From Alicyclobacillus sp. SO9 (GTDB taxonomy: Bacteria; Bacillota; Bacilli; Alicyclobacillales; Alicyclobacillaceae): a stretch of 64,000 nucleotides of DNA. The stretch spans positions 4,340,001-4,404,000 of the forward strand of contig NZ_CP066339.1 in NCBI RefSeq assembly GCF_016406125.1, given 5' to 3'. Of the stretch, positions 6,206 through 54,634 are shown one piece after another. The notes beneath the pieces are model-generated. The model had not been told where the DNA came from, made no database searches, and worked only from the letters and a program-made list of their open reading frames with translations. Numbering within the stretch: the stretch's first letter is position 1; the number at the start of each line of letters is the position of its first letter. A program made the position numbers and the translations under genes.

Positions 6206-6254
6206 AGCCGTAAACCTCCACAATGAAATCCGTTACTACAACACATTTTCCTCA

Positions 6255-6284: not shown

Positions 6285-6292
6285 CTCTCAGA

Positions 6293-9542: not shown

Positions 9543-11425
<1,883 letters not shown>

Positions 11426-11570
11426 TTATCATTATTGACCAAGTAGACCCACCACCGTTATCCCATTCTTCTCAAATCATTGCCTAATCCTCTCACTGTC
11501 GTTAAACACCAGACGAGTCTGGACTATAATTGTAACTATCAAGGATTAAGAAGAGAAATGAGGCGAATTC

Positions 11571-30930: not shown

Positions 30931-31878
30931 TTAGGACAGCCTTTCGTCAATGTAGCGAAAATATCTCCGGACAATGTTGATTTCAGGAGCAACCAGGCTC
31001 AAAGTACGACTGCCAACCACGTCTTCGATCTCGTTAAACAACAGTCCCCCGCCACCATCCGGCAAAAAGTCAATGCCAACCATCCCAAACTCAAAATGGG
31101 ACATGATGCGTCTTACGACGTCTTTCTCAGACGCGCTCAGGATGTATCGCTGGGCCCTGCCGCCCAGGGAGAAATTTGCGCGAAAGTCTGAGGATGTTGA
31201 CGAGCGCAGTACAGCGGCCACTATTTCCTTTCCGACAACAAACACTCGAACGTCTTTGCCGGGATTGGGACCGAGTTGCTGCAAAACCACATCCGTGTCG
31301 GGGTATTTGCTAATGAAATTCTCAAGGTCGTTTGAAGTTTCAATCAGCGCAACGTCTTTTCCACCTCGCCCAGAGACAGTTTTTATGACAAATGCCGAAT
31401 CCGACTCGCAAACTCTCTTTCTAATTCCATCTATCGAGACCTCATCCCGAATCGTCCCCTTGAGGTCCTCTGTATTACAAAATGCTGTGTTCAACATTGG
31501 GACATCAAACTGCTGCAGATACTGATAAGTTGCGGCCTTATTGTTGCATATGCGCGACACGGCGGAAGAATTGAAGACAGGGATGTGGAGGTGCTCCAGG
31601 TGGGTGGTGAGGACGGGATCGACAGTGCGCATAATCACAAAATCCGGTAGCTGGGAAGAACGGGCGTGAGACCTACCATGTCCCTGCACATCCGTTTGCG
31701 CGTCATTGACCCAGCCCACATGTGGTTGTCCGTTCATCACACCCGCAACCACTTCATCGCGGTACACCAGCATCAGTACCCAGTTCATGCGACGGGCTTC
31801 GGTCATCATCCACTCAATATAGTTTCTGTTTCGCTCTGCCTCTTTTCGGCGATAAACGAGCCAGCCCGCCTTTTTCAC
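30931..31878 (-). CDS. RimK-like ATP-grasp ligase, second of a pair
   Basis: The 315-residue protein has an N-terminal pre-ATP-grasp domain and an ATP-grasp fold. Motifs include NNKAATYQYL, FVIKTVSGRGGKDV (ATP lysine region), QQLGPNPGKDVRVFVVG, DFRANFSLGG, and the metal ligands in GIDFLPD and FNEIED. RimK/LysX ligases join amino acids to a carboxylate through an acyl-phosphate. It overlaps the upstream paralogue by 4 bp (GTGA) and lacks its own clear ribosome site, so it is translationally coupled. No carrier protein such as LysW is seen. The substrate is unknown. Confidence 0.85.
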   Translation of the reverse strand: MKKAGWLVYRRKEAERNRNYIEWMMTEARRMNWVLMLVYRDEVVAGVMNGQPHVGWVNDAQTDVQGHGRSHARSSQLPDFVIMRTVDPVLTTHLEHLHIPVFNSSAVSRICNNKAATYQYLQQFDVPMLNTAFCNTEDLKGTIRDEVSIDGIRKRVCESDSAFVIKTVSGRGGKDVALIETSNDLENFISKYPDTDVVLQQLGPNPGKDVRVFVVGKEIVAAVLRSSTSSDFRANFSLGGRAQRYILSASEKDVVRRIMSHFEFGMVGIDFLPDGGGGLLFNEIEDVVGSRTLSLVAPEINIVRRYFRYIDERLS

Positions 31879-32780
31879 ACTCGAACACCCGCCATGGTCC
31901 GTTTAATGTGAAGCAGCATATAGTCTGCAGCATTTACGCCCGTATAGGTCCGCAAGTTAATGATGTGTGCATTGGAATTCACTTCGCACAGGATGGGTTC
32001 GCCTTCGGGTCCGAAAAGGAGATCGACGCCGGCAAAATCTGCGCCTAGCTCTTTTGCACACCGGACGGCAAGTTCTTTCTGCTCTGTTGTGGGTGAATGC
32101 GGGAATGCATGTGCCCCTTTTCCCATGTTGGCGCGAAAATCTGTGTCTGACACCCGGCGCATGGCTCCTACCACTTCGTCTCCCACAACCTGCAGACGCA
32201 GGTCTGTACCTTTGCTGCTTCGAACAAATTCTTGAAAGACGAAGGGAATGCTGCCAAGTTCCTTCACTTTTCCCAACATCTCTTCTTCGTTTTGAATGAG
32301 ATAAACCTGCGATCCGAATGAACCATAGGACTCCTTCATCACCATGGGAAACCCCAGTTCTTCTGCTACATAGCTGTAGTACGCTTGTTCTTTTACTCCG
32401 GTCCAATCAAAAATCCGGGGGCTAAGTACCGTTTTGGGCATTGCAATCCCGCAATCACTCAACCACTGATATGTCAGTCCCTTGTTGTCACAGGTTTCAA
32501 TGACTTGAGCCGGATTGAACAGGCGGACACCTAATTTCTCTAAGTGCCTGGCCAAGTATAAATCCTTGTCCCAAAACAGGACAAAATCAGGCAATCGCTC
32601 GTCTTCCATACCCAGGAGTTGAGTTGTCCCGCCAGATACCATGGAAAACAGGCTGTTGTTGGGAACAATTTTTGTATGAATGCCATGCTTCTTGGCACTC
32701 TCATGAAAAATCTCCGCATGAGTCAGGAATTTGTCTCCTAAGTTCCCGTTGTAAATAATCCATCCAGACAGTGATGTCAC
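31875..32780 (-). CDS. RimK-like ATP-grasp ligase, first of a pair
   Basis: The 301-residue ATP-grasp protein is related to its downstream neighbour. It shows CDNKGLTYQWL, FPMVMKESYGSFGSQV, QEFVRSSKGTDLRLQVVG, DFRANMGKGAHAF, the metal-binding Asp in GADFAGVDLLFGPEG, and CEVNSNAHIIN. The combination matches the RimK/LysX group of carboxylate-amine ligases more closely than D-Ala ligases. The GTG start follows GGGGGA. The pair likely acts in sequence or as a heteromer on one product, which cannot be identified here. Bacillus YheC/YheD spore-coat-associated ATP-grasp proteins are another paired example. Confidence 0.85.
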   Translation of the reverse strand: MTSLSGWIIYNGNLGDKFLTHAEIFHESAKKHGIHTKIVPNNSLFSMVSGGTTQLLGMEDERLPDFVLFWDKDLYLARHLEKLGVRLFNPAQVIETCDNKGLTYQWLSDCGIAMPKTVLSPRIFDWTGVKEQAYYSYVAEELGFPMVMKESYGSFGSQVYLIQNEEEMLGKVKELGSIPFVFQEFVRSSKGTDLRLQVVGDEVVGAMRRVSDTDFRANMGKGAHAFPHSPTTEQKELAVRCAKELGADFAGVDLLFGPEGEPILCEVNSNAHIINLRTYTGVNAADYMLLHIKRTMAGVRV

Positions 32781-41319: not shown

Positions 41320-43275
41320 TTATGACTTGGAAAAGGTTTGCTTCAGGTGTTGTTCTGCCAGTTCAAAGTGATTTTTTACGAAATGACACGTTCGCTGCAA
41401 ATACTGAAACATCTGCTTCTGTAAGCCTGTAACCTGTTTCAACCGTTGGACACTGTCCACCTCGCCCACGTCATTGATTTGTTTGTGTATGGCAAATATC
41501 ACTTGCTGAGTAAAGGGGACAATCTGTTCGTCTACTGCGTACTTCTTAAATGCGGCAGTATTGGTCTGAAACAGTTTCTCGACAAAAGGCGGCAAACTGC
41601 TCTCTGGATACTTTTCTTGCAGTTTGCAAGCCCGCTCAATCAGATTGCAATTGTGGATGTCGCTGTCAGCTTGCTCAACCAAATTTGAGAATTTGGCTTT
41701 GATATCCACAACCTGCTTCACAAGCGTAGTTGTTCGCTCTTCAATCTGGGAATCGGCGGCAACCGCCTGCTTATCCTGTGTCACATTTTCCAGGTACTGA
41801 TACAAATTCATCGGCAGCGGGTCCGTACAATAGTTGTCAAGGGCCTCACGAAGGGTCATCAGTCGGGTTCCTTGAATGTAAGCACCACCTTCTGTAGCAT
41901 CGATAAAGTCTACACTGCTGTACTCTTGAATCTTCTGCTCGAACCAGGTTTTAAACTCGTACCAGATTTTTGTCGTAAGGACAGGCTGACCGTCCACTCC
42001 CTTTACGGTGAAAGAGGGCTGTGACTGCAGCAATTTTACCTGATTTTCCAAATCCGCCTGCGTGTATGCAGACAGCTTGCTGTGTGTCTGCTTGTTCGGT
42101 CCGAACGCCAAATCCTGGCCAATTAAAACAATCGGATTCGCTCCGACCCAGAGGGCAAACTCGAAGGCTAAATGAGCTGACGAACCCCCTCCGTGAAGAC
42201 CCGAAGGCTCGTGTCCAGGTTTCGGTGCCTCACCCGAGGGATTTTCCGAAATAGCATTTTGAATCCACTTGCCAGTAGATTCACTGTTCCGAAATACAGG
42301 GACCCACGGGCCTTTAAAACTGGCTGGAATCCTGGGATCCATTAAGGTCAGTCCAACCATGACCAGCTGCGGCGGAATCTCTTGGTGTTCAAAGTGAATG
42401 TGATAGACATTGGGGGTCCGTTCTGTGACGCAGATGGCATCTGGTACAATACCTCTGCGAAGACAAGGTTGCAGTGCAGATTCAGCAGTAAAGATGAGGG
42501 ATTTTCCCACTGCTTCATGAAGAAGTTCGATGTTCTTGTCCAATGACGGTCCATTTGAGACAATGAATGCCGGCTTGCCTGCAAAACTGTTTTTCAACGA
42601 ATCCAGCTTCGGGCTGTGCAGTATGGCATTCACATTATCCAAGGTATTGTACATACCAACCAGCGTGTCGTGAACCGAATTTCCGACACTGCTCAAATGC
42701 AGCTCCAGTGTATTCCATAACCATTCATGAAGCGCTAAATAAGTTGCTTTTTCATTTCTGTGTGCCAACCACGTAAAGAATGCAGCAGGTTTTGTTGCAC
42801 GAAGCAGAAATTCTGATGTAATCACGCTGTTCAGCATCGCTTTCATTTGATTGCTCGTGCCAATGACGAAATGAACCGACGGGTCCTTTAACAGGGGTGT
42901 CATATCAATACGGGTGAGCATTGCGTAAAACAAGTGTGTGTTTTCCTCAAAAATAATGGTTTCTGTGTAGGGTTTCTTTCTTCGGTAGTACTCAATTAAG
43001 GGATAGCCGAAGCCGCATCCATAAATGAAGCTGACCATAACATCCTTGTAATCCAGTGTCTGCGCCCATTGTTTGCCTTCTTCCCATGGATCGACAAGGC
43101 TGTTCGTATGAATAACAGCATCATCTCGTCTCATTACAGCGACTGGCCAACCGCGCTCTCCAAGGACTGTCTCAACGGTTTGAGACAACGGATTCCCTTC
43201 ACGAATTTGCGGCAGGACGTCTTTCAAGTGTGGAGGTAAATTTGAAAGGTTGTTTTCCAGTACTGGATTCTTCAT
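41320..43275 (-). CDS. Maf (DUF115) motility-associated-factor glycosyltransferase
   Basis: The 651-residue protein belongs to the Maf/DUF115 family. The central part (about 215-460) shows GKPAFIVSNGPSLDKNIELL, FTAESALQPCLRRGIVPDA, HGGGSSAHLAFEFA and NPIVLIGQDLAF, all typical of the GT-A-like Maf core. Maf enzymes transfer pseudaminic or legionaminic acid to Ser/Thr of flagellins. Here a full legionaminic acid pathway lies next to it, but no flagellin gene does. It overlaps the small upstream gene by 4 bp (ATGA). The acceptor may be one of the surface proteins at 44153-45818; this is inference. Confidence 0.9.
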   Translation of the reverse strand: MKNPVLENNLSNLPPHLKDVLPQIREGNPLSQTVETVLGERGWPVAVMRRDDAVIHTNSLVDPWEEGKQWAQTLDYKDVMVSFIYGCGFGYPLIEYYRRKKPYTETIIFEENTHLFYAMLTRIDMTPLLKDPSVHFVIGTSNQMKAMLNSVITSEFLLRATKPAAFFTWLAHRNEKATYLALHEWLWNTLELHLSSVGNSVHDTLVGMYNTLDNVNAILHSPKLDSLKNSFAGKPAFIVSNGPSLDKNIELLHEAVGKSLIFTAESALQPCLRRGIVPDAICVTERTPNVYHIHFEHQEIPPQLVMVGLTLMDPRIPASFKGPWVPVFRNSESTGKWIQNAISENPSGEAPKPGHEPSGLHGGGSSAHLAFEFALWVGANPIVLIGQDLAFGPNKQTHSKLSAYTQADLENQVKLLQSQPSFTVKGVDGQPVLTTKIWYEFKTWFEQKIQEYSSVDFIDATEGGAYIQGTRLMTLREALDNYCTDPLPMNLYQYLENVTQDKQAVAADSQIEERTTTLVKQVVDIKAKFSNLVEQADSDIHNCNLIERACKLQEKYPESSLPPFVEKLFQTNTAAFKKYAVDEQIVPFTQQVIFAIHKQINDVGEVDSVQRLKQVTGLQKQMFQYLQRTCHFVKNHFELAEQHLKQTFSKS

Positions 43276-43634
43276 TGCTTCAACCCTCCTGTTGATTCAT
43301 CACTGTCTTCTGCCTCTGCAATGAGGAGCGGCAGAATTTTGTACTCGAGAGTGTCTGTGGCATGGATGATGTCGCGGCTGTGAAGTGACTGAAGGACTTG
43401 TTTCAGCAGGCGGGTAACTTCTGTTGCAGCAGGAGGAGTAAGCCAGGCTGTCTCTGAGACGAATTCGGTGTCATCCGCAGGACCAGGGCGTTGCACGTCA
43501 TCTAAAGTCTCCAGCCACAGCAAACAGGCCCGTTGAAAGTGTTCTTTGCCTTGTGCATCATCACCGTTGCGCCATGCTGTACAGCCTGCTGCAATGGAGT
43601 CGGTAATCTCTGCAGCCTCATGAGTCATACGCAT
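43272..43634 (-). CDS. Small protein of the Maf operon, unknown family
   Basis: The 120-residue acidic, helical protein (CTAWRNGDDAQGKEHFQRAC and TEVTRLLKQVLQSLHSRDII) may have a TPR-like or four-helix fold. I do not recognise a family. Its stop overlaps the Maf start (ATGA) and its start overlaps the end of the next upstream gene by 17 bp, so the three genes are tightly coupled. By context it may be a chaperone, acceptor-recognition or assembly factor for the glycosyltransferase. Confidence 0.7.
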   Translation of the reverse strand: MRMTHEAAEITDSIAAGCTAWRNGDDAQGKEHFQRACLLWLETLDDVQRPGPADDTEFVSETAWLTPPAATEVTRLLKQVLQSLHSRDIIHATDTLEYKILPLLIAEAEDSDESTGGLKQ

Positions 43635-43911
43635 CGTACTCTCCCTCTTTCCAACGTTTCATCACGATGTCCGAACCTTCTTTAAAGAACCAATCTGCAT
43701 TCAACATGGTTGTTCTGCTTAGCCAGTTATTGGCTTTGTGAAAGTACACTACAGGACCCTGCAGGCGTTTCACATCGCCCAAACCAAAAAGCACGTCCGG
43801 ATTGCTGCTAAGCCATTGGTACCACTCCTCCAGCGTTACCAGCAATTCTTCCCGCGGTGCTTGTTCCTGTTTTGATTCTGAGTCCATTTGTGACTCCATT
43901 TCTGAGTCCAT
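43618..43911 (-). CDS. Small acidic protein at the head of the Maf operon
   Basis: This protein of about 97 residues starts with a Glu/Ser/Asp-rich tail (MDSEMESQMDSESKQ) and continues with VTLEEWYQWLSSNPDVLFGL and WLSRTTMLNADWFFKEG. No family is recognised. ATG at 43911 is chosen for the AGGGGG eight bases upstream; in-frame ATGs at 43947 and 43989 are alternatives. It overlaps the next gene and is divergent from the two putative surface-protein genes. Shared transcription with Maf suggests a role in the same process. Confidence 0.65.
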   Translation of the reverse strand: MDSEMESQMDSESKQEQAPREELLVTLEEWYQWLSSNPDVLFGLGDVKRLQGPVVYFHKANNWLSRTTMLNADWFFKEGSDIVMKRWKEGEYDAYDS

Positions 43912-44152
43912 TTTCCTTGCCCCCTGCCCTTTTATCCTGGTCAACATTCGCCCATTTTCCCGCCGCCTTTTGTGCTGTCGACACGACAAATGTCCTGCTG
44001 AACGTGTAAGTCGGCTCCTATTACTCTATACAGCCAGTTCTTCGTCTGAATGGGCATACTGGATAAAAATCACTGAAATGTAGGTGAAAACCCGAACAGG
44101 GCAACACATTGCCAAATAAGATATGGCAGTCAACTTGGGAGGAAGAGCGGTG

Positions 44153-44821
44153 ATGAGTCAATCTAAACCAAGAAACCAATTTTCGGGAAGAACAGTCCGG
44201 AAATCCAGTGCGAAGAATGCCTTGAAGAAGCGGCAGCAAGTGTCGTCTTCTACACCAAAAGTCCAGATTCTCGACAAAAACAACAAGGTCGTGAAACAGG
44301 TACAGACCGATGAATACGGCCGCCTTTTGACGGTTCCCGTATACAAAAAACGGAAGCAAATGCCGCGAACGAAAATCTATGGACAATATCAAAAAAACAC
44401 ACTGCCGGTTCGAGTCGATGAAAGCGGGCGTTTAGAGACGCGATCGAAGGTCGATGTCCATACAGATACTCTGACTTTTTACGAACAGAGGCAAACGGTG
44501 TACACCTTTAACACCTACACGCCATTGCCTTTCGAAGATATCAGCCACGCAGTTCAGTATGTCTACCTCGTCCACAACCAGGGAGACAACGATGCAGAAA
44601 TCTTTGTGGAGTTGGCCACTGATAATGAGAATGTGGTAAAGGACCTAGACGGTACATACGCTCTGTCTGCCGGCCAGTCAAAAATTTTGACACCGCTTCA
44701 GTTTTCCCGCTTCATCCGCATACAGTACCGCTCTAAAACCCGGGATATGTCCACGAAACTGCACATTGTATTCCAAGCACAACAGGTCTCTGCCCAAACG
44801 GATAACGACGGTAATTCGTAG
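44153..44821 (+). CDS. Putative surface protein with C-terminal beta-sandwich
   Basis: The protein has about 222 residues. A basic, Ser-rich N terminus (to about 35) is followed by two copies of a VxxDExGRLxT motif (QTDEYGRLLTV and RVDESGRLETR). The C-terminal domain of about 85 residues, from VQYVYLVHNQGDNDAEIFV to FQAQ, looks like an all-beta sandwich. The same domain ends the next protein. It resembles proteins annotated with DUF6385 as I remember them, which I cannot verify. There is no signal peptide. ATG at 44153 follows GGGAGG. It may be a spore or cell-surface protein and an acceptor for the neighbouring Maf glycosyltransferase. Confidence 0.65.
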   Translation: MSQSKPRNQFSGRTVRKSSAKNALKKRQQVSSSTPKVQILDKNNKVVKQVQTDEYGRLLTVPVYKKRKQMPRTKIYGQYQKNTLPVRVDESGRLETRSKVDVHTDTLTFYEQRQTVYTFNTYTPLPFEDISHAVQYVYLVHNQGDNDAEIFVELATDNENVVKDLDGTYALSAGQSKILTPLQFSRFIRIQYRSKTRDMSTKLHIVFQAQQVSAQTDNDGNS

Positions 44822-44990
44822 CGGGCATTCTTGCTCTCAAACGCCTGTCCTGGGCACTTACTGCACGCTAAACAATTTCCACAAAATACCGCTTCAGCCT
44901 ACAGCAACGGCCGTGGAAAAATCGAACAAGTTTCGTATGATAGCATGACTCCCCTGTTGAGTCATATTTAGGAATCTTCGTGGAGAGGAG

Positions 44991-45818
44991 ATGAAAAAAG
45001 TGTCCACAAAAGTGTTCTCAGAAGTTGCGTCGACGATGAGAAGCCAGGTCTTTCAATCCACAGCATCAGACATGCAAACACAGATCTTCCAAACGGCTGC
45101 TTCTAATTTGCAAGCAAACGTCTTCCAGACCTCTGCCTCCAACCTGCAGGCGCGCATATTCCAATCGCTGAACTCCCTGCTGGCGGCAAACGTCTTCCAG
45201 ACCTCTGCTTCTAACCTGCAGGCGCGCATATTCCAGTCACAGAACTCGCTGCTAGCGGCAAACGTCTTCCAGACCTCCGCTTCCAACCTGCAGGCGCGTA
45301 TATTCCAGTCGCTGAACTCCCTGCTGGCGGCAAACGTCTTCCAGACGAGTTCCTCCAACCTGCAAGCGCGGGTATTTCAGTCAACGTATTCGGAACTCCG
45401 TGCACAGGTGTTCCAGACGACAGCTTCGCTCCTGCGCATGACGCTGGTTCAATCCACCGCATCTACCGCCGCCTACGTACAACTTGGCGGTCGCTCTACG
45501 GTTAGCGTATCCTCCACACACGTTGTCTCGTCTACTGCTACGTATTTTGCTGGATTCACTCAGGACGTCTTGCAGCTATCCCAATTCACCTTCACAGTGC
45601 GAAATGCTGGCGCCGGAGGAAGTATTGACACAAAACTGCAGCTTAGTGCAGATGGAACCAACTGGTATGACGATCCAACCGGAAAGGTGGAAACCCTCAC
45701 GACCGGTCGAATCTTCACATTCACGCCAGGGTTTTTCACCAAATACGTGCGGATATCTTCAAAGAAGGCAAATGCAGCGGGCAGTACGTTGGAGACATAT
45801 GCGCAAGGGCACGTCTAG
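44991..45818 (+). CDS. 12-residue-repeat protein with C-terminal beta-sandwich
   Basis: The protein has 275 residues. Residues 8-163 are thirteen consecutive 12-residue repeats with consensus [VI]FQ[ST]xxSxLxAx, for example VFQTSASNLQAR and IFQSLNSLLAAN. Hydrophobic residues recur at positions 1, 2 and 9, and each repeat has several Ser, Thr, Asn and Gln, which suits a solenoid or a long amphipathic rod with many possible O-glycosylation sites. The last 110 residues form a beta-sandwich like that of the previous gene product (FTFTVRNAGAGGSIDTKLQL, then TKYVRISSK). No signal peptide is visible. The ATG follows GGAGAGGAG. Confidence 0.75.
   Translation: MKKVSTKVFSEVASTMRSQVFQSTASDMQTQIFQTAASNLQANVFQTSASNLQARIFQSLNSLLAANVFQTSASNLQARIFQSQNSLLAANVFQTSASNLQARIFQSLNSLLAANVFQTSSSNLQARVFQSTYSELRAQVFQTTASLLRMTLVQSTASTAAYVQLGGRSTVSVSSTHVVSSTATYFAGFTQDVLQLSQFTFTVRNAGAGGSIDTKLQLSADGTNWYDDPTGKVETLTTGRIFTFTPGFFTKYVRISSKKANAAGSTLETYAQGHV
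45114..45401 (+). repeat. 72-bp coding tandem repeats
   Basis: Units start at 45114, 45186, 45258 and 45330. The first three are nearly identical and the fourth has diverged. Each encodes two 12-residue protein repeats. High DNA identity points to recent expansion or homogenisation and predicts copy-number variation between strains. Confidence 0.9.
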
Positions 45819-45933
45819 AACGGCATACCTGTTTCGGTCTACAGCCAGCCCTGGGTTTTTCTATCCAGGGCTGCTCTGTCACAGCGAACGGCAAGATTGA
45901 CCCATCTCAAAATGAGAAAGGACAGGAGCGGAG

Positions 45934-46986
45934 ATGCAGACTTGTACAGACATATTCATCAGTCCATCGACATCTATCCGCGAATCGGTTGAAATTATTG
46001 ATAAGGGCCGCCATCAAATTGCCCTCGTTGTCGACGGCGACTTTAAGTTGCTGGGTACGGTGACGGACGGCGACGTTCGCAGAGCTATCTTGCGAGCAAA
46101 AGACTTTAGTGTCCATGCAGAGGAGATTATGAACCGCAATCCAATCACCGCCTCAATAGACACACCCGCAAAGGTAACGCGTCAAAACATGCTCGAGAAA
46201 GGAATCCGCGCAGTTCCGGTTGTGGATGACGACGGCCGTGTCTTGGGACTGGAAGTATGGAATGCCTTTCAGCCGTCCCATAGTAAGCACGAAAATTGGG
46301 TCGTGCTCATGGCCGGAGGACTTGGACACCGTCTCACTCCTCTTACAGACAGTTGCCCCAAGCCGCTCTTAAAAGTAGGTCCAAAGCCCATCCTGGAAAC
46401 GATTTTAGAATCATTCATAGCCCAGCACTTTGATAAATTCTTTCTTTCTGTCAATTACAAAGGCAACATGATTGAAGACTATTTTGGAGACGGAAGCAAA
46501 TGGGGCGTCACTATTAAATACTTGAAAGAAGAGAAACGAATGGGAACTGCAGGCGCTTTGTCCCTGTTGCCTGTGATTCCTGACTCACCTCTCATCGTCA
46601 TGAACGGGGATTTGCTCACGAGCGTGAACTTTGAGCAATTGCTGCAATTCCACCTGGAAAACAAAAGCGCCGCAACAATGTGCGTCCGCGAACATACTTA
46701 TACATTGCCTTACGGAGTGGTTCAGCTACAGAACCATCAGTTTATGGGGATTGAAGAGAAACCTGTCCAACAGCTATTTGTAAATGCAGGCATTTATGTG
46801 ATTGACCCAAAGGTCCTCACTCTGATTCAACCAGACATTTACACAGACATGACGACATGTTTCCAACAAATGGTACAACAGCATTATCACATCAGTGCGT
46901 TCCCAATCCGCGAGTATTGGCTGGACATTGGTAAGATGGACGACTACGTCCGCGCAAACCGTGAATACACCGAGGTGTTCCCATGA
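45934..46986 (+). CDS. ptmE: CBS-domain nucleotidyltransferase (PtmE-like)
   Basis: The 350-residue protein has two CBS motifs (about 1-120) and a sugar-phosphate nucleotidyltransferase domain (about 125-350) with MAGGLGHRLTPLTDSCPKPL. This architecture is that of Campylobacter PtmE, which makes GDP-glucosamine from GlcN-1-P and GTP at the start of legionaminic acid synthesis. The CBS pair may sense nucleotides. Its stop overlaps the next gene by 4 bp (ATGA), and it leads a four-gene operon. The ATG follows AGGAGCGGAG. The exact sugar and nucleotide are inferred from the pathway. Confidence 0.88.
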   Translation: MQTCTDIFISPSTSIRESVEIIDKGRHQIALVVDGDFKLLGTVTDGDVRRAILRAKDFSVHAEEIMNRNPITASIDTPAKVTRQNMLEKGIRAVPVVDDDGRVLGLEVWNAFQPSHSKHENWVVLMAGGLGHRLTPLTDSCPKPLLKVGPKPILETILESFIAQHFDKFFLSVNYKGNMIEDYFGDGSKWGVTIKYLKEEKRMGTAGALSLLPVIPDSPLIVMNGDLLTSVNFEQLLQFHLENKSAATMCVREHTYTLPYGVVQLQNHQFMGIEEKPVQQLFVNAGIYVIDPKVLTLIQPDIYTDMTTCFQQMVQQHYHISAFPIREYWLDIGKMDDYVRANREYTEVFP

Positions 46987-47900
46987 AGGCGCTCATCATT
47001 GGGTACGGATCAATTGGGCGAAGACACGCTCGTATCCTTCATCAACTCAACTACGAAGTCATCGTTGTAAGCTCTCGAGGCGGCATCAAAGGCACTTCCT
47101 ATCCGATATCTGTGTCGACTGAGCAGATATTAGAGCGAACAATACCTGACTACGTAGTCATAGCAAATGAGACAGATAGACATTATCAAACACTACGGCA
47201 GATCCGACGACTGGGATTTACGGGACCTGTGCTAGTAGAGAAACCTCTCTTTGGAGATGCAGACAATGCACAAGCCTTTGACCTTAGCAATACATTCGCT
47301 GGCTATAACCTCCGTTTTCACCCAGTGTTGCTTCGCCTGAAAAAGCTTGTGCAGGAGAAGTCTGTTATTTCTGCGCATCTGTATGTGGGCCAATACCTGC
47401 CTGCGTGGCGTAGTGGAGATTATCGCAGAAGCTATTCTGCCAGTCAGAACAGAGGGGGCGGTGTTCTTCGCGATTTGAGTCATGAACTGGACTTTGTTCA
47501 GTGGCTGTTTGGCCCATGGCAGCAAGTCGCTGCTCTTGGAGGGCACTTTAGTACACTTCAGATTGATAGCGATGATGTCTTTGCACTGCTGCTGTCGACG
47601 CAGCGCTGTCCCGTTGTAAGTGTCCAATTAAACTACGTCGACCGACTGCAGCAGAGGCAAGTAATCGTTAACACTGATACAGAAACGTATGCGGCTGACT
47701 TAATTCAGAACACGCTTACGTCTACTCACGGAACTACGCAATTTCAATTGGATTTGGATATCACCTATAAGCTGGAACACATGGCTGCAATCCTTCAGGA
47801 CGACACGGTGCTATGCAGTGCCGAGGATGCTTTGCAGACAGATGAACTGATTGCCTCAGCGGCAAAAGCAGCCCAAGAAGGACGGTGGGTCCACAGATGA
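46983..47900 (+). CDS. ptmF: Gfo/Idh/MocA oxidoreductase (PtmF-like)
   Basis: The 305-residue protein has an N-terminal NAD(P)-binding Rossmann fold (ALIIGYGSIGRRHARIL) and a C-terminal alpha/beta domain with LVEKPLF, the EKP motif of this family. In C. jejuni, PtmF acts with PtmA and PtmE in making the glucosamine precursor of GDP-linked legionaminic acid; the reaction here is inferred from context. It overlaps PtmE and LegF genes by 4 bp on each side, so translation is coupled. Confidence 0.85.
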   Translation: MKALIIGYGSIGRRHARILHQLNYEVIVVSSRGGIKGTSYPISVSTEQILERTIPDYVVIANETDRHYQTLRQIRRLGFTGPVLVEKPLFGDADNAQAFDLSNTFAGYNLRFHPVLLRLKKLVQEKSVISAHLYVGQYLPAWRSGDYRRSYSASQNRGGGVLRDLSHELDFVQWLFGPWQQVAALGGHFSTLQIDSDDVFALLLSTQRCPVVSVQLNYVDRLQQRQVIVNTDTETYAADLIQNTLTSTHGTTQFQLDLDITYKLEHMAAILQDDTVLCSAEDALQTDELIASAAKAAQEGRWVHR

Positions 47901-48601
47901 AACGACTCTGTACGATTTGTGCAAGAGGCGCATCAAAAGGCGTTAAAAACAAGAACCTTCGCATACTCCTCGGCAGACCTCTCATTGCGCACACCGTAGA
48001 GCAGGCAAAATCCTCACAGTTGTTCGACACCATCGCTGTGAGCAGTGACAGCCGAGAGATTTTATCTACCGCTGCAGAGTACGGAGCAGATGAGCTTGTC
48101 GTCCGTCCTCCTGACTTGGCTGGAGATGATGCGCCCAAACTCCCTGCCATTCATCACTGTGTACAAACCGTTGAGGCTCGGCTCGATGTGACCTTTGACA
48201 CGCTGGTTGACCTGGATGCAACATCCCCTTTGCGAGATTTGGCAGACATCACTACCACCGTTCGTCTTCTGGAACAATCCGATGCCGCCAACATCCTCAC
48301 GGGTACACCTTCACGTAAGTCACCGTATTTTAATATGGTCGAGGTCCTTGATACAGGGGTGACGAGACTTGTCAAGCAATCAGGGAAAGAGATTGTCAGA
48401 CGTCAGGATGTACCTCTAACTTTTGATTTGAATGCGTCCATTTATGTGTGGAAACGCAGTCAGTTTCTTACCGACTTCACGCTGTTTACAGACAAAACGC
48501 GTCTATACGTAATGCCGCCGGAACGGTCGGTTGATATTGACTCCGAGTTGGACTTTGAATGGGTAGAATTCTTGATGAAGCGGAGGCGCAGTCAAGCGTG
48601 A
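47897..48601 (+). CDS. legF: CMP-nonulosonic acid synthetase (LegF/PtmB)
   Basis: This protein of about 234 residues belongs to the acylneuraminate cytidylyltransferase family. Early ICARGASKGVKNKNLRILLG matches the CTP-binding loop of NeuA/PtmB, LVDLDATSPLRDL holds the family motif, and the C-terminal VDIDSELDFEW carries the metal-binding Asp pair. It should activate legionaminic acid as the CMP-sugar, the donor for Maf. ATG at 47897 is chosen since it overlaps the PtmF stop (ATGA). Confidence 0.9.
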   Translation: MKRLCTICARGASKGVKNKNLRILLGRPLIAHTVEQAKSSQLFDTIAVSSDSREILSTAAEYGADELVVRPPDLAGDDAPKLPAIHHCVQTVEARLDVTFDTLVDLDATSPLRDLADITTTVRLLEQSDAANILTGTPSRKSPYFNMVEVLDTGVTRLVKQSGKEIVRRQDVPLTFDLNASIYVWKRSQFLTDFTLFTDKTRLYVMPPERSVDIDSELDFEWVEFLMKRRRSQA

Positions 48602-49425
48602 GCACACAGACTTATCGAGCGTTATTCGATTTAAGCGGGAAAACAGCCATTGTCACGGGTGCCCTAGGGCTTTTGGGCCGTCGATTCTGCAGAGGGTTGG
48701 CAGAGTCAGGAGCTCAGGTTGCCGTTGTCGATCTCGATGCAGACAAGGCACAACAATTCGCCTCCCGCCTCGCACAAGACTACGGCACTCGAGCTGCGGG
48801 AATCGGCTGTGATGTTTCGAATCCTGCCGCCGTAGACCATATGATAGGTCAGACGTGTGAGGTTTTGGGTGATATTCACATCCTGCTGAACAATGCTGCA
48901 AGCAAGTCGGAACACCTTGACGCCTTTTTCGCCCCGTTTGAGGAGTACTCGCTGGATGAATGGCGACGGGTAATGTCCGTCAACCTGGATGGTGCCTTTC
49001 TGACCGCCCAAGCTGTTGGAAGGCAGATGATTGCACAAGGTACGGGCGGGTCCATCATCCAGACATCCTCCATTTACGGGTTACTGGGGCCTGATGACAG
49101 AATCTATCAAGACTCGCACTACCTTGGCACAACCATTAACACGCCCGCCGTCTATTCCGCATCCAAGGCCGCCATTGTGGGACTGACCAATCACTTGGCC
49201 GCAAGGTGGGCAAAGCACGGCATTCGTGTCAACACACTCACACCAGGCGGCGTTGAAAGCGGACAAAATGACACCTTTGTAAAAAACTACTCCAACCGGG
49301 TCCCAATGGGGCGCATGGCAAAGGCCGATGAACTGGTAGGTGCCGCCCTGTTCCTGGCGTCTGATGCCTCCAGTTACGTCACAGGGCAGAACCTGTTTGT
49401 AGACGGCGGTTTGAGTGCCTGGTAG
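48598..49425 (+). CDS. ptmA: Short-chain dehydrogenase (PtmA-like)
   Basis: This protein of about 275 residues is a classical SDR with a Rossmann start VTGALGLLGRRFC, NNAAS, the catalytic Ser region QTSSIYGLLGP, and YSASK with Tyr and Lys. It resembles PtmA, which works with PtmF in the GDP-legionaminic acid route. The GTG at 48598 overlaps the LegF stop (GTGA) and has GGAGG 12 bases upstream. A longer frame from 48559 is less likely. It is the last gene of the plus-strand operon and converges on legH with a 39-bp gap. Confidence 0.87.
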   Translation: MSTQTYRALFDLSGKTAIVTGALGLLGRRFCRGLAESGAQVAVVDLDADKAQQFASRLAQDYGTRAAGIGCDVSNPAAVDHMIGQTCEVLGDIHILLNNAASKSEHLDAFFAPFEEYSLDEWRRVMSVNLDGAFLTAQAVGRQMIAQGTGGSIIQTSSIYGLLGPDDRIYQDSHYLGTTINTPAVYSASKAAIVGLTNHLAARWAKHGIRVNTLTPGGVESGQNDTFVKNYSNRVPMGRMAKADELVGAALFLASDASSYVTGQNLFVDGGLSAW

Positions 49426-49464
49426 CGCGACTGTTCACGGTGAATGGGCCCCTATATGATGACT

Positions 49465-50100
49465 TTACTTTGCCGGGACACCTTTCACGGTTTGAAAATC
49501 GGCAACAGGTTTCGTGACAACAGCCCCCGCTCCGACGGTGCTGTAGCGCCCAATCTGCATTTTGTCTCGGCAGGACTTGCCCTGTAATACGACCGATCCC
49601 GTTCCCACATACGCCCCCTCCATCAATTGCACATTTCCCGAAATGTTTGCCCCTGGTCCAACGGTTACGAAGTCCTCGATGACACAGTCGTGGGCTACTG
49701 TCGCATTCAAGTTGTACAGGCCAAAATTGCCGAAGTGAACATGGGTCGTCATTCGTACACCAGCCAAGACAATGTTACCAATGCATTGTCTCAATTCTGC
49801 CTTTTGCTGTCTCCCAAAACTCGTATCCGGATGGACCATGTTGACATAACGAAGCAACGGATGCCGCTCGTAAATTTGGCGTCGTATGTTGGGATTCCCG
49901 ACTGCTATGACAAAATCCCATCCGTCAGTGTCCAGTTGATGGAGTTCTTCTTCCGAAATCACCGGGAAAGTGCGGTGTGCAAGGGTATCGGGTACAACGC
50001 CCGCCTTTTCCACCAGAACCACGTTGGCGTAGCCCGCTTCCAAGCACATGTCGGCAACTTCCTGTGCAAGTCCTGACGATCCGAAGATACCTATATCCAT
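49465..50100 (-). CDS. legH: NeuD/PglD-type acetyltransferase (LegH-like)
   Basis: The 211-residue protein has an N-terminal PglD/NeuD substrate domain (IGIFGSSGLAQEVADM) and a C-terminal left-handed beta helix of hexapeptide repeats (VTVGPGANISGNV, GSVVLQG). The catalytic His is probably in TVAHDCVIED. In the legionaminic pathway an acetyltransferase of this type N-acetylates the C-4 amine made by LegC. It overlaps the end of legI by 10 bp and is the last gene of the minus-strand operon. The ATG follows AAGGATGAG. Confidence 0.88.
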   Translation of the reverse strand: MDIGIFGSSGLAQEVADMCLEAGYANVVLVEKAGVVPDTLAHRTFPVISEEELHQLDTDGWDFVIAVGNPNIRRQIYERHPLLRYVNMVHPDTSFGRQQKAELRQCIGNIVLAGVRMTTHVHFGNFGLYNLNATVAHDCVIEDFVTVGPGANISGNVQLMEGAYVGTGSVVLQGKSCRDKMQIGRYSTVGAGAVVTKPVADFQTVKGVPAK

Positions 50101-51188
50101 TGGATTGGCTCATCCTTTTCAAAGTCCTGAGATGCTGTCTTCCCAAGAACGTCGTAGTAGTATGCGGCAGAGATTCCCTCTGCGGGGCGCTTCGTCGTGA
50201 CATTATCTGCGCCAAGTACTTCTCCCTTGCGGATAAAGCGCGCAGCCACAACACTTTTGCGGACAAGCTGAGCATTGTTTTGTTCATCGACACTGGGTTG
50301 TTTCATAGATGAGCCAAGCGCCGACTCTGTCTGGCGTACAGCCCTGACCATTTGCTCGAACTCGGCAGGTTCCAGTGAAGCTCGGTGATCGGGGCCGGGC
50401 AAGCTCCGATTGAGGGTCAGATGCTTCTCTATGACGGCAGCCCCTCGCGCTGCCGCAGCAATCGCAATCGTAATTCCTGAAGTATGATCGGAGAGCCCTG
50501 CAGGCAAAGAGAACGTGGAAGCCAGTGTATCCATAGCTCGTAAATTCACGTGCTCAAAGGGAGCAGGATACTCAGATGTCGCGTGAAGCAGGGTGACGAA
50601 TTTTGCGATAGCTGCTTGACCCGATTCGGACAGATAATGACGTCGAAACTCCATTGCATTCGGTTGCAGAGGAGCCGTCGTTTGTGCAGACTCGGTCAAA
50701 CCAAAGGCAAGAATGGACAGAGCTGTCTCCACTTCACCAATGGTTGCCATTCCCGTTGAGAGAATGATAGGTTTCCTGCTTCTGGCGATTTTGAGGAGGA
50801 GAGGAGCCGATGTAATATCCCCGGAAGCTACCTTGAGTCTGTCTACTTTCAAATCATTTAGAACGTCTACACTGGGTTCGTCAAAGGGTGTCGAAATAAA
50901 CTCTAGTTGACGCTCTTCACAGTAGTCTTTCAAAACGCCAAATGTCTTCGCAGACAACTGCAACTTGTGCAGCATATCGTATTGAGACTCGTCAGACGGC
51001 GTCGCCAGCTCTTGGTACGCTGCCTTCTTTGTATCCCTTCTAACCAGATGTTGCGCATTGAATGTCTGAAACTTCACCGCATCAGCACCGGCATTCGCTG
51101 CTGCGTCAATGAGCTGTTTGGCCACATCCGCCAATCCGTTGTGATTCACCCCGATTTCAGCTACAACCAATGTTCGACCTTTTGGCAC
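50091..51188 (-). CDS. legI: Legionaminic acid synthase (NeuB family)
   Basis: The 365-residue protein has a NeuB TIM-barrel domain (about 1-285) with VAEIGVNHNGLADVAKQLID, SAPLLLKIARSRKPIILSTG and GLSDHTSGITIAIAA. A C-terminal SAF/antifreeze-like domain (about 300-360) has VRKSVVAARFIRKGEVL. NeuB enzymes condense a 6-carbon sugar with phosphoenolpyruvate to make a nonulosonic acid; with legB and legC present, legionaminic acid is expected rather than sialic acid. The GTG start follows GGGGGG at seven bases. Confidence 0.92.
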   Translation of the reverse strand: MPKGRTLVVAEIGVNHNGLADVAKQLIDAAANAGADAVKFQTFNAQHLVRRDTKKAAYQELATPSDESQYDMLHKLQLSAKTFGVLKDYCEERQLEFISTPFDEPSVDVLNDLKVDRLKVASGDITSAPLLLKIARSRKPIILSTGMATIGEVETALSILAFGLTESAQTTAPLQPNAMEFRRHYLSESGQAAIAKFVTLLHATSEYPAPFEHVNLRAMDTLASTFSLPAGLSDHTSGITIAIAAAARGAAVIEKHLTLNRSLPGPDHRASLEPAEFEQMVRAVRQTESALGSSMKQPSVDEQNNAQLVRKSVVAARFIRKGEVLGADNVTTKRPAEGISAAYYYDVLGKTASQDFEKDEPIQWI

Positions 51189-52346
51189 CTAACAGCCCCC
51201 CTCGTAAAATGTCTTTCGCACGTCTATTCCCTCTGCCAACCGTTCCTTGAGAATACGCACGATTTGAACACTGCTGCCTCCATTTCCATACGGGTTCGAC
51301 ACTCCGCTGCAATCCAGCTTCCACGCCTTCTGAATGGCTAAGAAAATTTCCTTAGCATACGGTTCACAGTGAATGACGGACTCCCCCCGCAACCTGCCTT
51401 TTTGCCTGTCTCCAATATCTACTGTCGGCTTATGCAAACTGGGGACTTCCGTTAAACCGCTGGACGAATTTCCGACCACTGCATCCACAAATCGTACAAG
51501 GTTAAAATAGTACAGTTGTCCCAGCGATGTGACGGCTACAGCATTGTCGTGAGCTGCGGTGAACTTGTCCATCAGTTGCATCAGAACTCTTCCGTTGGGG
51601 TCGGCGTTGGGTTTTGTAAAAATGATTCCGGTGTCTTTCTCCAGTTGCTCTAATGCGTGTAGAACCTCTTCTAGTTCCTCCTTTGAAGAACGGTTCCCCA
51701 AAGTCACAGGGTGATAAGTAACCAGCAGGTTTCGACTTCTCAGTGTGAATTGGAGACGTTCTTCCACTGCTGACTGCGAGAGCCTGGGTAAACCAAGAAT
51801 TCTGTCAATTCCAGGATGGCCTGCGTTGTACACTGTATTCGGGTCCTCACCTAGGTGTACGACCCGTTTACGCGATGGTTCGTTGGTGACAAAGTGAAGT
51901 GCAGACATCTTTGTCATGCTGTGACGGAGTCCCTCGTCAAAGGCACCCACAGTCACATCACCTCCGGCAATATGTACAACAGGAACACGCATGATAAAAG
52001 CAGTTTGGACGGCAGCGAAAATTTCGTATCTGTCTCCCAGAACAACAACTGCGTCAGGCTGCAGACGCTGGTAGACATCTGCAAAACCGATGCAGCCCAG
52101 GCCGACAGATTTCGCTGTCCCAGCATGGGTATCACTGGACAGTAGGGTTTCTACTTTCTCGTCAATGACAAATCCATCTGCTTCAATGTCTCGATAAGTG
52201 GAGCCAAACTCCGGTGAAAGATGCATCCCCGTCACGACAACCTGCAGTCGTAATGAGGAGTCTGCTGCGATGAAACTCATCACCTGTTGCAGCAAACCGT
52301 ACTCCGAACGGCTCCCCGTCACAACACACACGTTACTTGTCTTCAT
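51189..52346 (-). CDS. legG: Hydrolysing UDP-sugar 2-epimerase (NeuC/LegG)
   Basis: This protein of about 385 residues is of the UDP-GlcNAc 2-epimerase superfamily. It shows VVTGSRSEYGLLQQVM at the start, PDAVVVLGDRYEIFAA, HIAGGDVTVGAFDEGLRHSM, and VVGNSSSGLTEVPSLHKP. NeuC-type enzymes epimerise C-2 and release the nucleotide, giving the sugar used by LegI. The ATG at 52346 lies 14 bp inside the end of legC and has GGGGG upstream. Confidence 0.91.
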   Translation of the reverse strand: MKTSNVCVVTGSRSEYGLLQQVMSFIAADSSLRLQVVVTGMHLSPEFGSTYRDIEADGFVIDEKVETLLSSDTHAGTAKSVGLGCIGFADVYQRLQPDAVVVLGDRYEIFAAVQTAFIMRVPVVHIAGGDVTVGAFDEGLRHSMTKMSALHFVTNEPSRKRVVHLGEDPNTVYNAGHPGIDRILGLPRLSQSAVEERLQFTLRSRNLLVTYHPVTLGNRSSKEELEEVLHALEQLEKDTGIIFTKPNADPNGRVLMQLMDKFTAAHDNAVAVTSLGQLYYFNLVRFVDAVVGNSSSGLTEVPSLHKPTVDIGDRQKGRLRGESVIHCEPYAKEIFLAIQKAWKLDCSGVSNPYGNGGSSVQIVRILKERLAEGIDVRKTFYEGGC

Positions 52347-53520
52347 CAGCAACCCCCAACGCTGGACTGCTGGGAATGTTCATCACCTGCTTTGCCAAAC
52401 GCTGCGAAACAGATAGATCCATCCGCGGACAGTCCTGATACGGCGCTTGCCTGTGCAGAGGCTTCCACAAGGGCCTGGTCATGATGCCTTCACTATGGGT
52501 CAGCGCCAACAAGTCCTCAAGATACGGTGCAACGGTCTCATCTAGTATCAAAGCATTTAGCCAGTAATTGCTCGTTGCAAACTCCGGTTCGGTTAAGAAG
52601 CGCACGTGTTCTGAAAGACGAAACGCCCCTTCATACGCCTTCGCCAAGTGTCGTTTTTTTTGAACAAAGTCTGGCAGCCGCTTCATCTGTGCGAGACCAA
52701 AAGCTGCATTTAGATTCGGCATGCGATAGTTGTAGCCAATATCGTCATGAACGAAGTCCCACGGATGAGGCTCTTTGGCCACCGTTGTCAGGTGCGCTGC
52801 CTTTGCCGCCAGTTCGTCGTCATCTGTCAGAATCGCGCCGCCGCCGCCGGTTGTGATGATTTTATTGCCGTTGAAGCTGAGGGCTCCCAGTCGGCCGAAG
52901 GTGCCTGTGTGGCGATTTTTGTAACGCGATCCCAGTGATTCAGCCGCATCTTCCACCAACTCCAGACCATATTTCTGACAGACACCCATCAGCAAGTCCA
53001 GTTCGACAGGATGACCCAGTGCATGCATGGCCACCACCGCCTTCACTATTCGCTTGGTTGACCGATTCCAACATTGACCCTTGCGCATTTGGCAGACAGC
53101 AGCAAGGTATGTGTCCAGGCGGGCAGGGTCGATGCCAAGTGTCTCAGGAGAACAATCCACCAAATGAGGGACGGCGTTGCAGTAGGACACTGCATTGGCG
53201 GTTGCTATGAACGTCAGAGCGGGAACCAGAACCTCATCCCCCGCTTGGACCCCTGCCAGTTTGAGGCACAAGTGCAATGCTGAGGTTCCGTTTACCGTCG
53301 GTATAGCGTGTCTCGCACCTGTAAACGATTCGAGTTCCCGGGCAAACTGGTTGACGAAATTACCCGCTGAAGAGACAAAACCGCTATCCAGACACGCCTT
53401 GACATAGTCCCTCTCCAAATCTGAGATAGCAGGTTCATGCAGCGCTGTCGGATTCAGTTCCGCCGGAAGCACAGACTTCAACCTCAGCACAACATCTTTG
53501 AGAAACGTTTGCTTGTTCAT
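52333..53520 (-). CDS. legC: PLP aminotransferase (LegC)
   Basis: This protein of about 395 residues is a DegT/DnrJ/EryC1-type sugar aminotransferase. Features include PTVNGTSALHLCLKLAGVQ, DEVLVPALTFIATANAV, VEDAAESLGSRYK, and the PLP lysine in LSFNGNKIITTGGGG. LegC aminates the 4-keto sugar made by LegB. The ATG at 53520 overlaps the legB stop (ATGA); an upstream in-frame start would lie deep within legB and is rejected. The start MNKQTFLKDVVLRLKSVL is typical of LegC, from memory. Confidence 0.92.
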   Translation of the reverse strand: MNKQTFLKDVVLRLKSVLPAELNPTALHEPAISDLERDYVKACLDSGFVSSAGNFVNQFARELESFTGARHAIPTVNGTSALHLCLKLAGVQAGDEVLVPALTFIATANAVSYCNAVPHLVDCSPETLGIDPARLDTYLAAVCQMRKGQCWNRSTKRIVKAVVAMHALGHPVELDLLMGVCQKYGLELVEDAAESLGSRYKNRHTGTFGRLGALSFNGNKIITTGGGGAILTDDDELAAKAAHLTTVAKEPHPWDFVHDDIGYNYRMPNLNAAFGLAQMKRLPDFVQKKRHLAKAYEGAFRLSEHVRFLTEPEFATSNYWLNALILDETVAPYLEDLLALTHSEGIMTRPLWKPLHRQAPYQDCPRMDLSVSQRLAKQVMNIPSSPALGVADEDK

Positions 53521-54527
53521 ATGGTATATACCTGCGGTGTAAAGCGTTTCAAATTCTCTGCGGTGCAAAACCAGGCAATGGTCTGTGTCAACCCTTGCCG
53601 CAAACCCTCTTCCCCGGAAAGCTGCGGCTTCCATCCCAGCAAACGCTGTGCTTTCTGGTTGTCTGCCAACAGCCGCTCTACTTCACTGTCTTTGGGCCGA
53701 ATTCGCTGTGCATCCGTTTGTATCTCGACAGCGGCGCCCATAATATCGGCAATGAGCTGCGCTGTCTCACCAATAGAGACGTCAAAGCCGCTGCCAATAT
53801 TGACAACTTCTCCGACAGACTGTTCAGAGGCTGCCATTGCAGTGAACCCGAGCACCGTATCCCGCACATAATTAAAATCTCTTCGAGGATGAAGTGAACC
53901 AAGGCGCAGGGTCTTCGCACCTTGGGCAATCTGCGTAATGACCGTCGGAATCACTGCACGCAAGGACTGTCTGGGACCATATGTATTGAAGGGGCGAATC
54001 ACTGCAACGGGAGTTTGAAATGAGTAGTAGAAAGACAGCGCCAGTTCATCCGCACTCATCTTTGTAGCAGAATACGGCGACTGCGGTTGCAACGGATGGT
54101 CTTCCGTAATCGGGACGAATCGGGCGGTCCCATAGACTTCGCTTGTAGAGGTATGAATCATTTTCTCCAATTCGAGTTCGCGTACGGCCTGAAGGACATT
54201 CAGTGTTCCGCGAATGTTTGTGTCGACGTATGACTCCGGAGCAACGTAGGAGTATGGAATGCCAATCAGTGCTGCCAAGTGAAAAACCACGTCCCGTTGA
54301 CTCAGTGCGCTCTTGACAGCACTCGCGTCGCGGATATCTCCAAGAACAACGTCTACTTCATTTCGTACGCTCTCATCCAGGCTGTCCAGCCAGCCCGCAG
54401 AACCAAACGAGTTGTACCACGCAAAAGCTTTGACGTCGCACCCTGTCTGAACCAGTTCTTCAACCAAATGTGAGCCAATAAACCCGTCAGCGCCAGTGAC
54501 AAGAACACGCTTTCCCTTCAGATGCAT
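53517..54527 (-). CDS. legB: NAD-dependent sugar 4,6-dehydratase (LegB)
   Basis: This protein of about 336 residues is an extended SDR. It has GADGFIGSHL for NAD binding, HTSTSEVYGTA with the catalytic Ser/Thr, YSATK with the catalytic Tyr and Lys, and RPFNTYGPRQS. LegB removes water from the nucleotide-linked HexNAc to give the 4-keto-6-deoxy sugar that LegC aminates. ATG at 54527 is chosen because GGGGG precedes it by eight bases. It is the first gene of the minus-strand legBCGIH operon, so the promoter should lie in 54528-54634. Confidence 0.92.
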   Translation of the reverse strand: MHLKGKRVLVTGADGFIGSHLVEELVQTGCDVKAFAWYNSFGSAGWLDSLDESVRNEVDVVLGDIRDASAVKSALSQRDVVFHLAALIGIPYSYVAPESYVDTNIRGTLNVLQAVRELELEKMIHTSTSEVYGTARFVPITEDHPLQPQSPYSATKMSADELALSFYYSFQTPVAVIRPFNTYGPRQSLRAVIPTVITQIAQGAKTLRLGSLHPRRDFNYVRDTVLGFTAMAASEQSVGEVVNIGSGFDVSIGETAQLIADIMGAAVEIQTDAQRIRPKDSEVERLLADNQKAQRLLGWKPQLSGEEGLRQGLTQTIAWFCTAENLKRFTPQVYTI

Positions 54528-54634
54528 AGACCAAGCCCCCAACAGCAGCAACTGTGCTCACTTGCACTGATTCATACTATTCAGTGCCCAACACATACAT
54601 TACAGTTGCACGAGTCTCTTGCTGTGTTCAGCTT

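Follow-up and report, generated by a model that had tools for sequence, protein, structure and literature searches.

A legionaminic acid cassette with a separate-branch Maf glycosyltransferase, predicted to modify Ena-like spore-surface proteins in Alicyclobacillus

The legionaminic acid and Maf locus

The window analyzed here is a stretch of 64,000 nucleotides from Alicyclobacillus sp. SO9 (G000:C1:4340001-4404000), in which genes for a Maf-type glycosyltransferase, two small proteins, two DUF6385 proteins and the enzymes of legionaminic acid (Leg) biosynthesis form a cassette spanning positions 41320-54551. We propose, with a probability of about 0.6, that this locus is a self-contained O-glycosylation cassette in which a separate branch of Maf enzymes acts in the mother cell, putting Leg on Ena-like fibre proteins of the spore surface. 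The host genome (G000; 5.29 Mb, 2 contigs, rated 100% complete) belongs to the family of Alicyclobacillus and encodes SpoIVA.

Pfam and NCBIfam profile searches recovered, at or near the same coordinates, every gene that a first-pass annotation of the window had named. The cassette runs in the order Maf, smallA, smallB, DUF6385 a and b, PtmE-PtmF-LegF-PtmA and LegH-LegI-LegG-LegC-LegB:

41320-43275, minus strand: Maf-type glycosyltransferase (PF01973, 117.7 bits; cut-off 34.6)
43272-43634, minus strand: smallA, 120 amino acids, adjoining Maf, with neither a Pfam nor an NCBIfam family
43618-43989, minus strand: smallB, about 100-120 amino acids, confined to DUF6385/Ena-type cassettes
44123-44821, plus strand: DUF6385 protein a (PF19912, 73.9 bits; cut-off 26.8)
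44991-45818, plus strand: DUF6385 protein b (PF19912, 58.5 bits; cut-off 26.8)
45934-46986, plus strand: PtmE, CBS (PF00571) and nucleotidyltransferase (PF00483) domains, sugar-nucleotide formation; kept in cassettes
46983-47900, plus strand: PtmF, GFO/IDH/MocA oxidoreductase by Pfam; kept in cassettes
47885-48601, plus strand: LegF, CMP-legionaminate synthetase (CMP, cytidine monophosphate; PF02348, 70.8 bits); kept in cassettes
48559-49425, plus strand: PtmA, short-chain dehydrogenase (PF13561); kept in cassettes
49465-50100, minus strand: LegH, PglD-like N-acetyltransferase (PF17836 and Hexapep); kept except in G033
50091-51188, minus strand: LegI, legionaminic acid synthase of the NeuB/NnaB family (TIGR03569, 458 bits; cut-off 399.65)
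51189-52352, minus strand: LegG, NeuC/NnaA-family sugar-nucleotide epimerase/hydrolase (TIGR03568, 439.9 bits; cut-off 235.9)
52333 to about 53520, minus strand: LegC, aminotransferase (TIGR04181, 510.5 bits; cut-off 420)
53517-54551, minus strand: LegB, NAD-dependent 4,6-dehydratase (TIGR04180, 503.3 bits; cut-off 475)

The two DUF6385 genes are divergent from those encoding Maf, smallA and smallB, and the first of them likely starts at the ATG at 44153, downstream of GGGAGG. The LegB, LegC, NeuC-type and NeuB-type enzymes of the CMP-legionaminic acid pathway all score above curated cut-offs, while the names PtmE, PtmF, PtmA, LegH and LegF were given from Pfam domains and gene context. Family membership being established in this way, the locus is predicted to encode a route to CMP-Leg, the chemistry of which would follow from that of the families. 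No flagellin gene was found in the window, in which no search for FliD or flagellar chaperones was made.

A separate branch of Maf enzymes

Gene neighbourhoods were compared across the family (41 genomes) and a class-wide sample (398 genomes), and the conclusions lean on local hidden Markov models (HMMs) for Maf, smallA, smallB, DUF6385, flagellin and Ena. These models were iterated, and those for LegB, PtmE and the GT2 glycosyltransferases match broad enzyme families; "GT2-type" hereafter denotes a GT2 match at E < 1e-50.

The window Maf, which is the only Maf of its genome, reaches 15.8 bits (E 0.01; cut-off 23.5) against the N-terminal Maf domain PF20157 and 144.1 bits against the flagellin modification protein PseD (NF050051), under the cut-off of 670. 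In a tree of 49 Maf sequences, the 11 enzymes encoded next to DUF6385 (9) or Ena (2) genes form one branch (support 100/99; 100% of 200 bootstrap trees) with members drawn from five families, the labels having been set by gene neighbourhood so that the tree asks whether neighbourhood tracks descent, not function. Outside this branch are 35 flagellin-linked sequences and three with neither label, and its closest neighbours are two flagellin-linked Mafs. An earlier tree of 47 sequences agrees with this one. Cassette Mafs, including that of A. fastidiosus (G007), share 55-66% identity with the window enzyme, compared with 23-28% for the flagellin-linked Mafs of the family. None of the 11 branch members adjoins a flagellin gene, a gene present in 4/4 flagellin-side Maf loci of the family (L038-L041) and in 19 of another 20 class Maf loci picked for diversity, the exception (L093) ending at a contig end. 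G121 has another Maf (L116), in whose 15 kb stretch no flagellin or DUF6385 gene was found.

Homologues of smallA adjoin Maf in 11/11 branch members and occur as well in flagellin loci, with matches in 17 of the 20 other Maf loci (L075-L094) at E < 1e-8. In a scan with the local HMM, all 31 matches lay within 365 bp of a Maf. The window protein has no Pfam match at E up to 0.1 and no NCBIfam match, and none of the scanned homologues exceeds a cut-off of either database. smallA is a widespread family of Maf-adjacent proteins and, judging from its position, a likely Maf accessory factor and possibly a counterpart of GlfM, a co-encoded factor required by one Maf type (PMC13317340). smallB has a narrower distribution: it is found in the window, in L030-L034 and in L062 (7/11 branch members) and in 0/20 other Maf loci. 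No Pfam family (E up to 0.1; the sole row being Vps62, under cut-off) or NCBIfam family was assigned to the window protein.

Endospore appendage genes in the DUF6385 slot

In the cassette of A. fastidiosus (L034), the position held elsewhere by the DUF6385 genes is occupied by two genes matching PF13157 ("Endospore appendages") and two DUF4183 genes, DUF4183 being the fibre subunit of F-ENA (PMC11952670). These two Ena genes are the sole PF13157 matches among the 41 family genomes, with none in G000, and a third Ena gene of the same locus (11254-11604) was recognized by the local HMM alone. DUF4183 occurs in 6 of the 41 genomes; contig 3 of A. fastidiosus carries four more DUF4183 (F-ENA-type) matches (G007:C3:27653-31376). 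A similar exchange is seen in another family, where G121 (L115) has the order smallA-Maf-four Ena-like genes-PtmF-LegF, with the Ena-like genes starting 0.1-1.5 kb after Maf; three of them match PF13157 and the fourth (11053-11397) is recognized by the local HMM alone.

DUF6385 protein a consists of a basic N-terminal extension followed by a jellyroll domain that is Ena-like in prediction. An AlphaFold2 model of this domain (C-terminal 151 residues, 44-row alignment) has a mean predicted local distance difference test score (pLDDT) of 89.4. In a Foldseek search of this model against the PDB, Ena1B (7a02) ranked first (E 3.7e-5); PirA took ranks 2 and 4, and ranks 3 and 5-7 went to Ena3A, Ena2A and Ena1C. 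The cassette Ena proteins inspected on the forward strand of L034 and L115 have a basic N-terminal extension too; for these the counts of Lys + Arg to Asp + Glu are 11/1 and 20/0, compared with 25/8 for DUF6385 protein a. Kinship with Ena is plausible on the likeness of the predicted jellyrolls, which is not proof.

DUF6385 protein b carries a serine/threonine (Ser/Thr)-rich region of 12-residue repeats (11 motif occurrences) followed by a C-terminal DUF6385 domain. The first-pass annotation had pointed to a Ser/Thr-rich repeat protein next to Maf, and these repeats proved to be real, the region agreeing with itself at 48% of positions at shift 12 and 73% at shift 24, compared with 9-11% at shifts 10, 11 and 13, and containing 25% Ser + Thr. 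The model of the whole protein reached a pLDDT of 42, and no weight is given to the helical repeats in it. In the class loci L055, L056 and L070, where GT2-type genes lie alongside, GT[LI]T-rich repeats with 29-32% Ser + Thr replace the 12-residue repeats of the b-type proteins.

Link to sporulation

SpoIVA is encoded in 268 of the 398 class genomes, among which are all 50 DUF6385-positive genomes (lists compared by eye). Upstream of the first DUF6385 genes, a sigma-E/K-like -10 box, CATANNNT, was found in 8 of 35 cases at -50..-26, a range picked after the sites had been inspected, with a mean of 0.93 in shuffled sequences and no shuffling out of 500 reaching the observed count. Within the same range, this box precedes 1/41 flagellin, 0/39 Maf, 0/34 LegB and 0/26 LegI genes, and 5/63 GT2-type genes (shuffled mean 1.15; reached in 6/500). 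With no position limit, CATANNNTA is present upstream of 10/51 DUF6385 genes against 3.0 expected. Patterns for sigma-E and sigma-G gave no clear enrichment upstream of DUF6385 genes (0/51 and 2/51), and as a check of the method, the sigma-D pattern was found upstream of 12/48 flagellin genes against 0.8 expected. A place on the spore is favoured by the occurrence of Ena genes at the DUF6385 position, by the co-distribution with SpoIVA, by the predicted fold and by the promoter boxes that relatives carry. Ena subunits of B. paranthracis are reported as late mother-cell products, likely under sigma-K (PMC12921279).

Conservation of the cassette and association with GT2-type genes

Among the 41 family genomes, DUF6385 was found in 8 (two matches each), Maf in 9 and flagellin in 36. 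Five genomes from four genera (G000, G021, G024, G025, G033) keep the order from LegB to Maf, the sole gap being LegH of G033, which was not found in its cassette place. In this genome, Alicyclobacillus sp. ALC3, a second LegB-, LegH-, LegC-like set is located just past the cassette Maf (L033:12914-16610). The other named carriers are A. herbarius DSM 13609 (G021), A. macrosporangiidus DSM 17980 (G024) and A. fastidiosus; named genomes were scanned for the cassette Maf under strict patterns, and the result, 4 loci, says little on absence elsewhere. L030-L033 and L062 have kept the repeat protein, DUF6385 b. Of the class genomes sampled, 50 contain DUF6385 (47 over cut-off), 39 of which have exactly two matches, and 109 contain Maf (86 over cut-off). 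Maf adjoins DUF6385 outside the family in G069, G073, G114 and G381, which represent three families. A chance neighbourhood of Maf and DUF6385 was considered and rejected, given that the order recurs in five genomes spread over four genera and that the two genes adjoin each other in three further families.

In the DUF6385-positive family genomes devoid of Maf (G030, G039, G040), the DUF6385 pair adjoins GT2-type glycosyltransferase genes; those Pfam-scanned, from L035 and L037, encode GT2 enzymes with TPR. The A. herbarius locus has a GT2-TPR glycosyltransferase gene between its two DUF6385 genes (L030:9119-10522), with Maf present too. Among 20 class loci picked for DUF6385, 17 contain a GT2-type gene, 4 a Maf (all among those 17) and none a flagellin, while GT2-type genes occur in 0 of the 20 other Maf loci. 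In total, a Maf and/or a GT2-type gene is present in the stretch for 25/28 DUF6385 loci (family 8/8, class 17/20).

Elsewhere in the window, an IS110-family transposase gene lies about 12 kb from the cassette (27812-29089), an adjacent pair of genes encodes RimK-like ATP-grasp proteins, to which no role was assigned (30931-32780), and the left edge carries tandem repeats at 41-376 (129-bp unit, 2.6 copies) and 619-724 (23-bp unit, 4.7 copies).

Proposed mechanism and alternatives

From the gene content, its conservation, the Maf tree, the slot exchange and the predicted fold, we infer a product sugar, an acceptor, and a place and time for the modification. PtmE, PtmF and PtmA, LegB, LegC, LegH, LegG and LegI, and LegF would synthesize CMP-legionaminic acid. 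The separate-branch Maf, aided by smallA and smallB, would then move Leg from CMP-Leg to Ser/Thr residues of the adjacent DUF6385 proteins. DUF6385 b is the likeliest acceptor, most likely through its 12-residue repeats, and DUF6385 a may be modified too. The reaction would take place in the mother-cell cytoplasm during late sporulation, ahead of the assembly of Ena-like subunits on the forespore. Maf is known to modify flagellin in the cytoplasm (PMC13317340; PMC4065374), and the cytoplasm of the mother cell is where spore appendage proteins are produced (PMC12921279). Since flagellin and mother-cell-made spore proteins are both accessible in a cytoplasm before their exit, one enzyme family could serve both.

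Several results weigh against this proposal. smallB was not found in 4/11 branch members (L060, L066, L073, L115) and is thus not essential to the whole branch. In VIA-align comparisons of the DUF6385 a model, PirA (Z 11.7) and XepA (11.1) score above Ena1B (10.7; 109 residues aligned), Ena2A (9.8) and Ena1C and Ena3A (both 8.9), so that the fold is a common jellyroll found in unrelated proteins. Neither window DUF6385 protein has a PF13157 row at E up to 0.1, both lack the cysteines expected of disulfide-linked S-/L-ENA (0 in the two proteins), and an hhalign comparison of the DUF6385 and Ena profiles gives weak support (probability 10%, E 0.003, compared with 0.4% and 0.14 for the reversed control). 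In the class sample, Ena occurs in 17/398 genomes and adjoins Maf in only 1/17 (G121). The SpoIVA co-distribution is weak proof because SpoIVA is encoded by 67% of the sampled genomes, which are also related to one another. The promoter evidence is weakened by the choice of range after inspection, by the lack of clear enrichment of a more complete sigma-K pattern, -35 element included, upstream of DUF6385 genes (4/51 against 2.4 expected), and by the region upstream of the window DUF6385 a gene, in which no CATANNNT or other sigma-E/K box was found. Finally, the glycosylation, expression and spore location of the DUF6385 proteins are predicted from the genes, and the flagellins of G000 leave room for a flagellar role of Maf in that organism.

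The missing sporulation box and the predicted nature of the spore placement would both suit a target on the surface of the vegetative cell, such as an adhesin or sheath glycoprotein, in place of a spore structure. We consider such a target unlikely, as it is at odds with the Ena genes that take the same slot, the promoter boxes in relatives and the presence of SpoIVA in 50/50 DUF6385-positive genomes.

It could also be argued that the cassette was merely displaced from a flagellar cluster and that its Maf acts on distant flagellins. Characterized Mafs act on flagellin, and in some Clostridium a flagellar role is assigned to CMP-Leg and Maf genes that lie away from the flagellar region (PMC13317340). 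In this respect the first-pass annotation, which described a locus with no flagellar genes, holds for flagellin in the window and not for the organism: two flagellin-family genes of G000 (G000:C1:4197606 and 4198568) are located some 183 kb away from maf, and the genome has no second Maf. We rejected the displacement as quite improbable, since these Mafs form one separate branch with none of its 11 members beside flagellin, since G025 and G073 each own a flagellin-linked Maf in addition to the cassette type, and since G033 (100% complete, 6% contamination) retains the cassette with no flagellin match. The flagellins of G000 also lie about 2 kb from two GT2-type genes of their own (L042:3822-4982 and 4984-7275, L042 being G000:C1:4188000-4207999), so that they may be modified by another system. 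In the five branch genomes outside the family, all of which have flagellin genes, these are on a separate contig or about 1 Mb distant. The dedicated, non-flagellar system put forward in the first-pass annotation is partly supported, with the reservations that the organism has flagellins elsewhere and that the glycosylation, the spore location and the choice of the repeat protein over its sister as acceptor are predictions. A direct linkage of flagellin to this Maf in relatives and the loss of the repeat protein from beside it had been named as observations that would speak against such a system; the first was not seen for any of the 11 branch members, and the repeat protein persists next to Maf in G073, from a further family, and in five family genomes that represent four genera. 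The co-occurrence suggested for genomes without flagellin was met with in one Maf-plus-DUF6385 genome, G033.

That CMP-Leg serves mainly a spore glycan or other coat or crust proteins, the DUF6385 proteins being mere neighbours, could be suggested by the crust-linked Leg of B. subtilis, which as of 2020 had no known transferase or identified acceptor (PMC7439481), and is quite improbable given that Maf enzymes are protein O-glycosyltransferases (PMC11339370) and that a Maf and/or GT2-type gene accompanies nearly all DUF6385 loci (25/28).

Relation to known systems

The proposed Leg transfer by a Maf to Ena-like proteins shares features with three known systems. Maf flagellin islands with Leg or pseudaminic acid (Campylobacter, Aeromonas, Clostridium, Geobacillus) have in common with the window the PF01973 enzyme, the Leg pathway, a smallA-type gene and a compact organization; the window cassette differs by its separate Maf branch, its extra smallB and the DUF6385/Ena genes that stand where flagellin would be. 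The sps genes of B. subtilis likewise involve Leg for the spore surface, which is predicted in the window, and the spore crust of this species bears legionaminic acid (PMC7439481). SpsA and SpsB were not required for its transfer, a compensation for SpsB not being excluded (PMC7439481). While the sps system uses precursors linked to uridine diphosphate and had no known Leg transferase as of 2020 (PMC7439481), the window has a LegB-type pathway together with a candidate transferase. This type of pathway is linked to guanosine diphosphate in C. jejuni (PMC7439481), as it may be in the window.

The third comparison is with S-/L-ENA (PF13157) and F-ENA (DUF4183; PMC11952670), which resemble the DUF6385 proteins through the predicted jellyroll, as in Ena1B and Ena3A, and through the true Ena and DUF4183 genes of the A. 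fastidiosus slot. The window proteins differ by the absence of a PF13157 match and of cysteines and, for one of them, by a region of 12-residue repeats. In F-ENA-4 fibres, putative O-glycan density was reported on 5 Ser and 3 Thr residues, and the available excerpts of the report do not name the enzyme responsible (PMC11952670). The text of PMC12921279 contains no word starting with "glycos".

In the literature searched, which left most subscription papers outside it, no published spore-dedicated Maf was found, no match combined a Maf glycosyltransferase, legionaminic acid and the spore, and DUF6385 goes unmentioned in all 5.39 million papers. In the excerpts of PMC13317340 and PMC13130089, the single mention of the spore surface points to B. 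subtilis spore work or sits by it in the references, and in that of PMC7439481 Maf appears in a reference title alone.

Significance

The locus apparently applies a known enzyme family and a known sugar pathway to a new class of acceptor. More broadly, and with somewhat less than even confidence, it may be suggested that a second branch of the Maf family is dedicated to the spore and that DUF6385 is a further endospore-appendage family, comprising a fibre subunit and a repeat-stalk protein, whose fibres would be O-glycosylated in the mother cell, some genera using this Maf with Leg and others GT2-type glycosyltransferases.

Alicyclobacillus species are juice-spoilage organisms. The named carriers of the cassette belong to this genus, and the sugars of their spore surface could thus bear on adhesion and cleaning. 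The locus brings together a specific enzyme, a sugar pathway and a predicted acceptor that are testable together, and it offers a candidate for the missing spore Leg transferase. It also dissociates Maf from the flagellum and points to a possible function of DUF6385.

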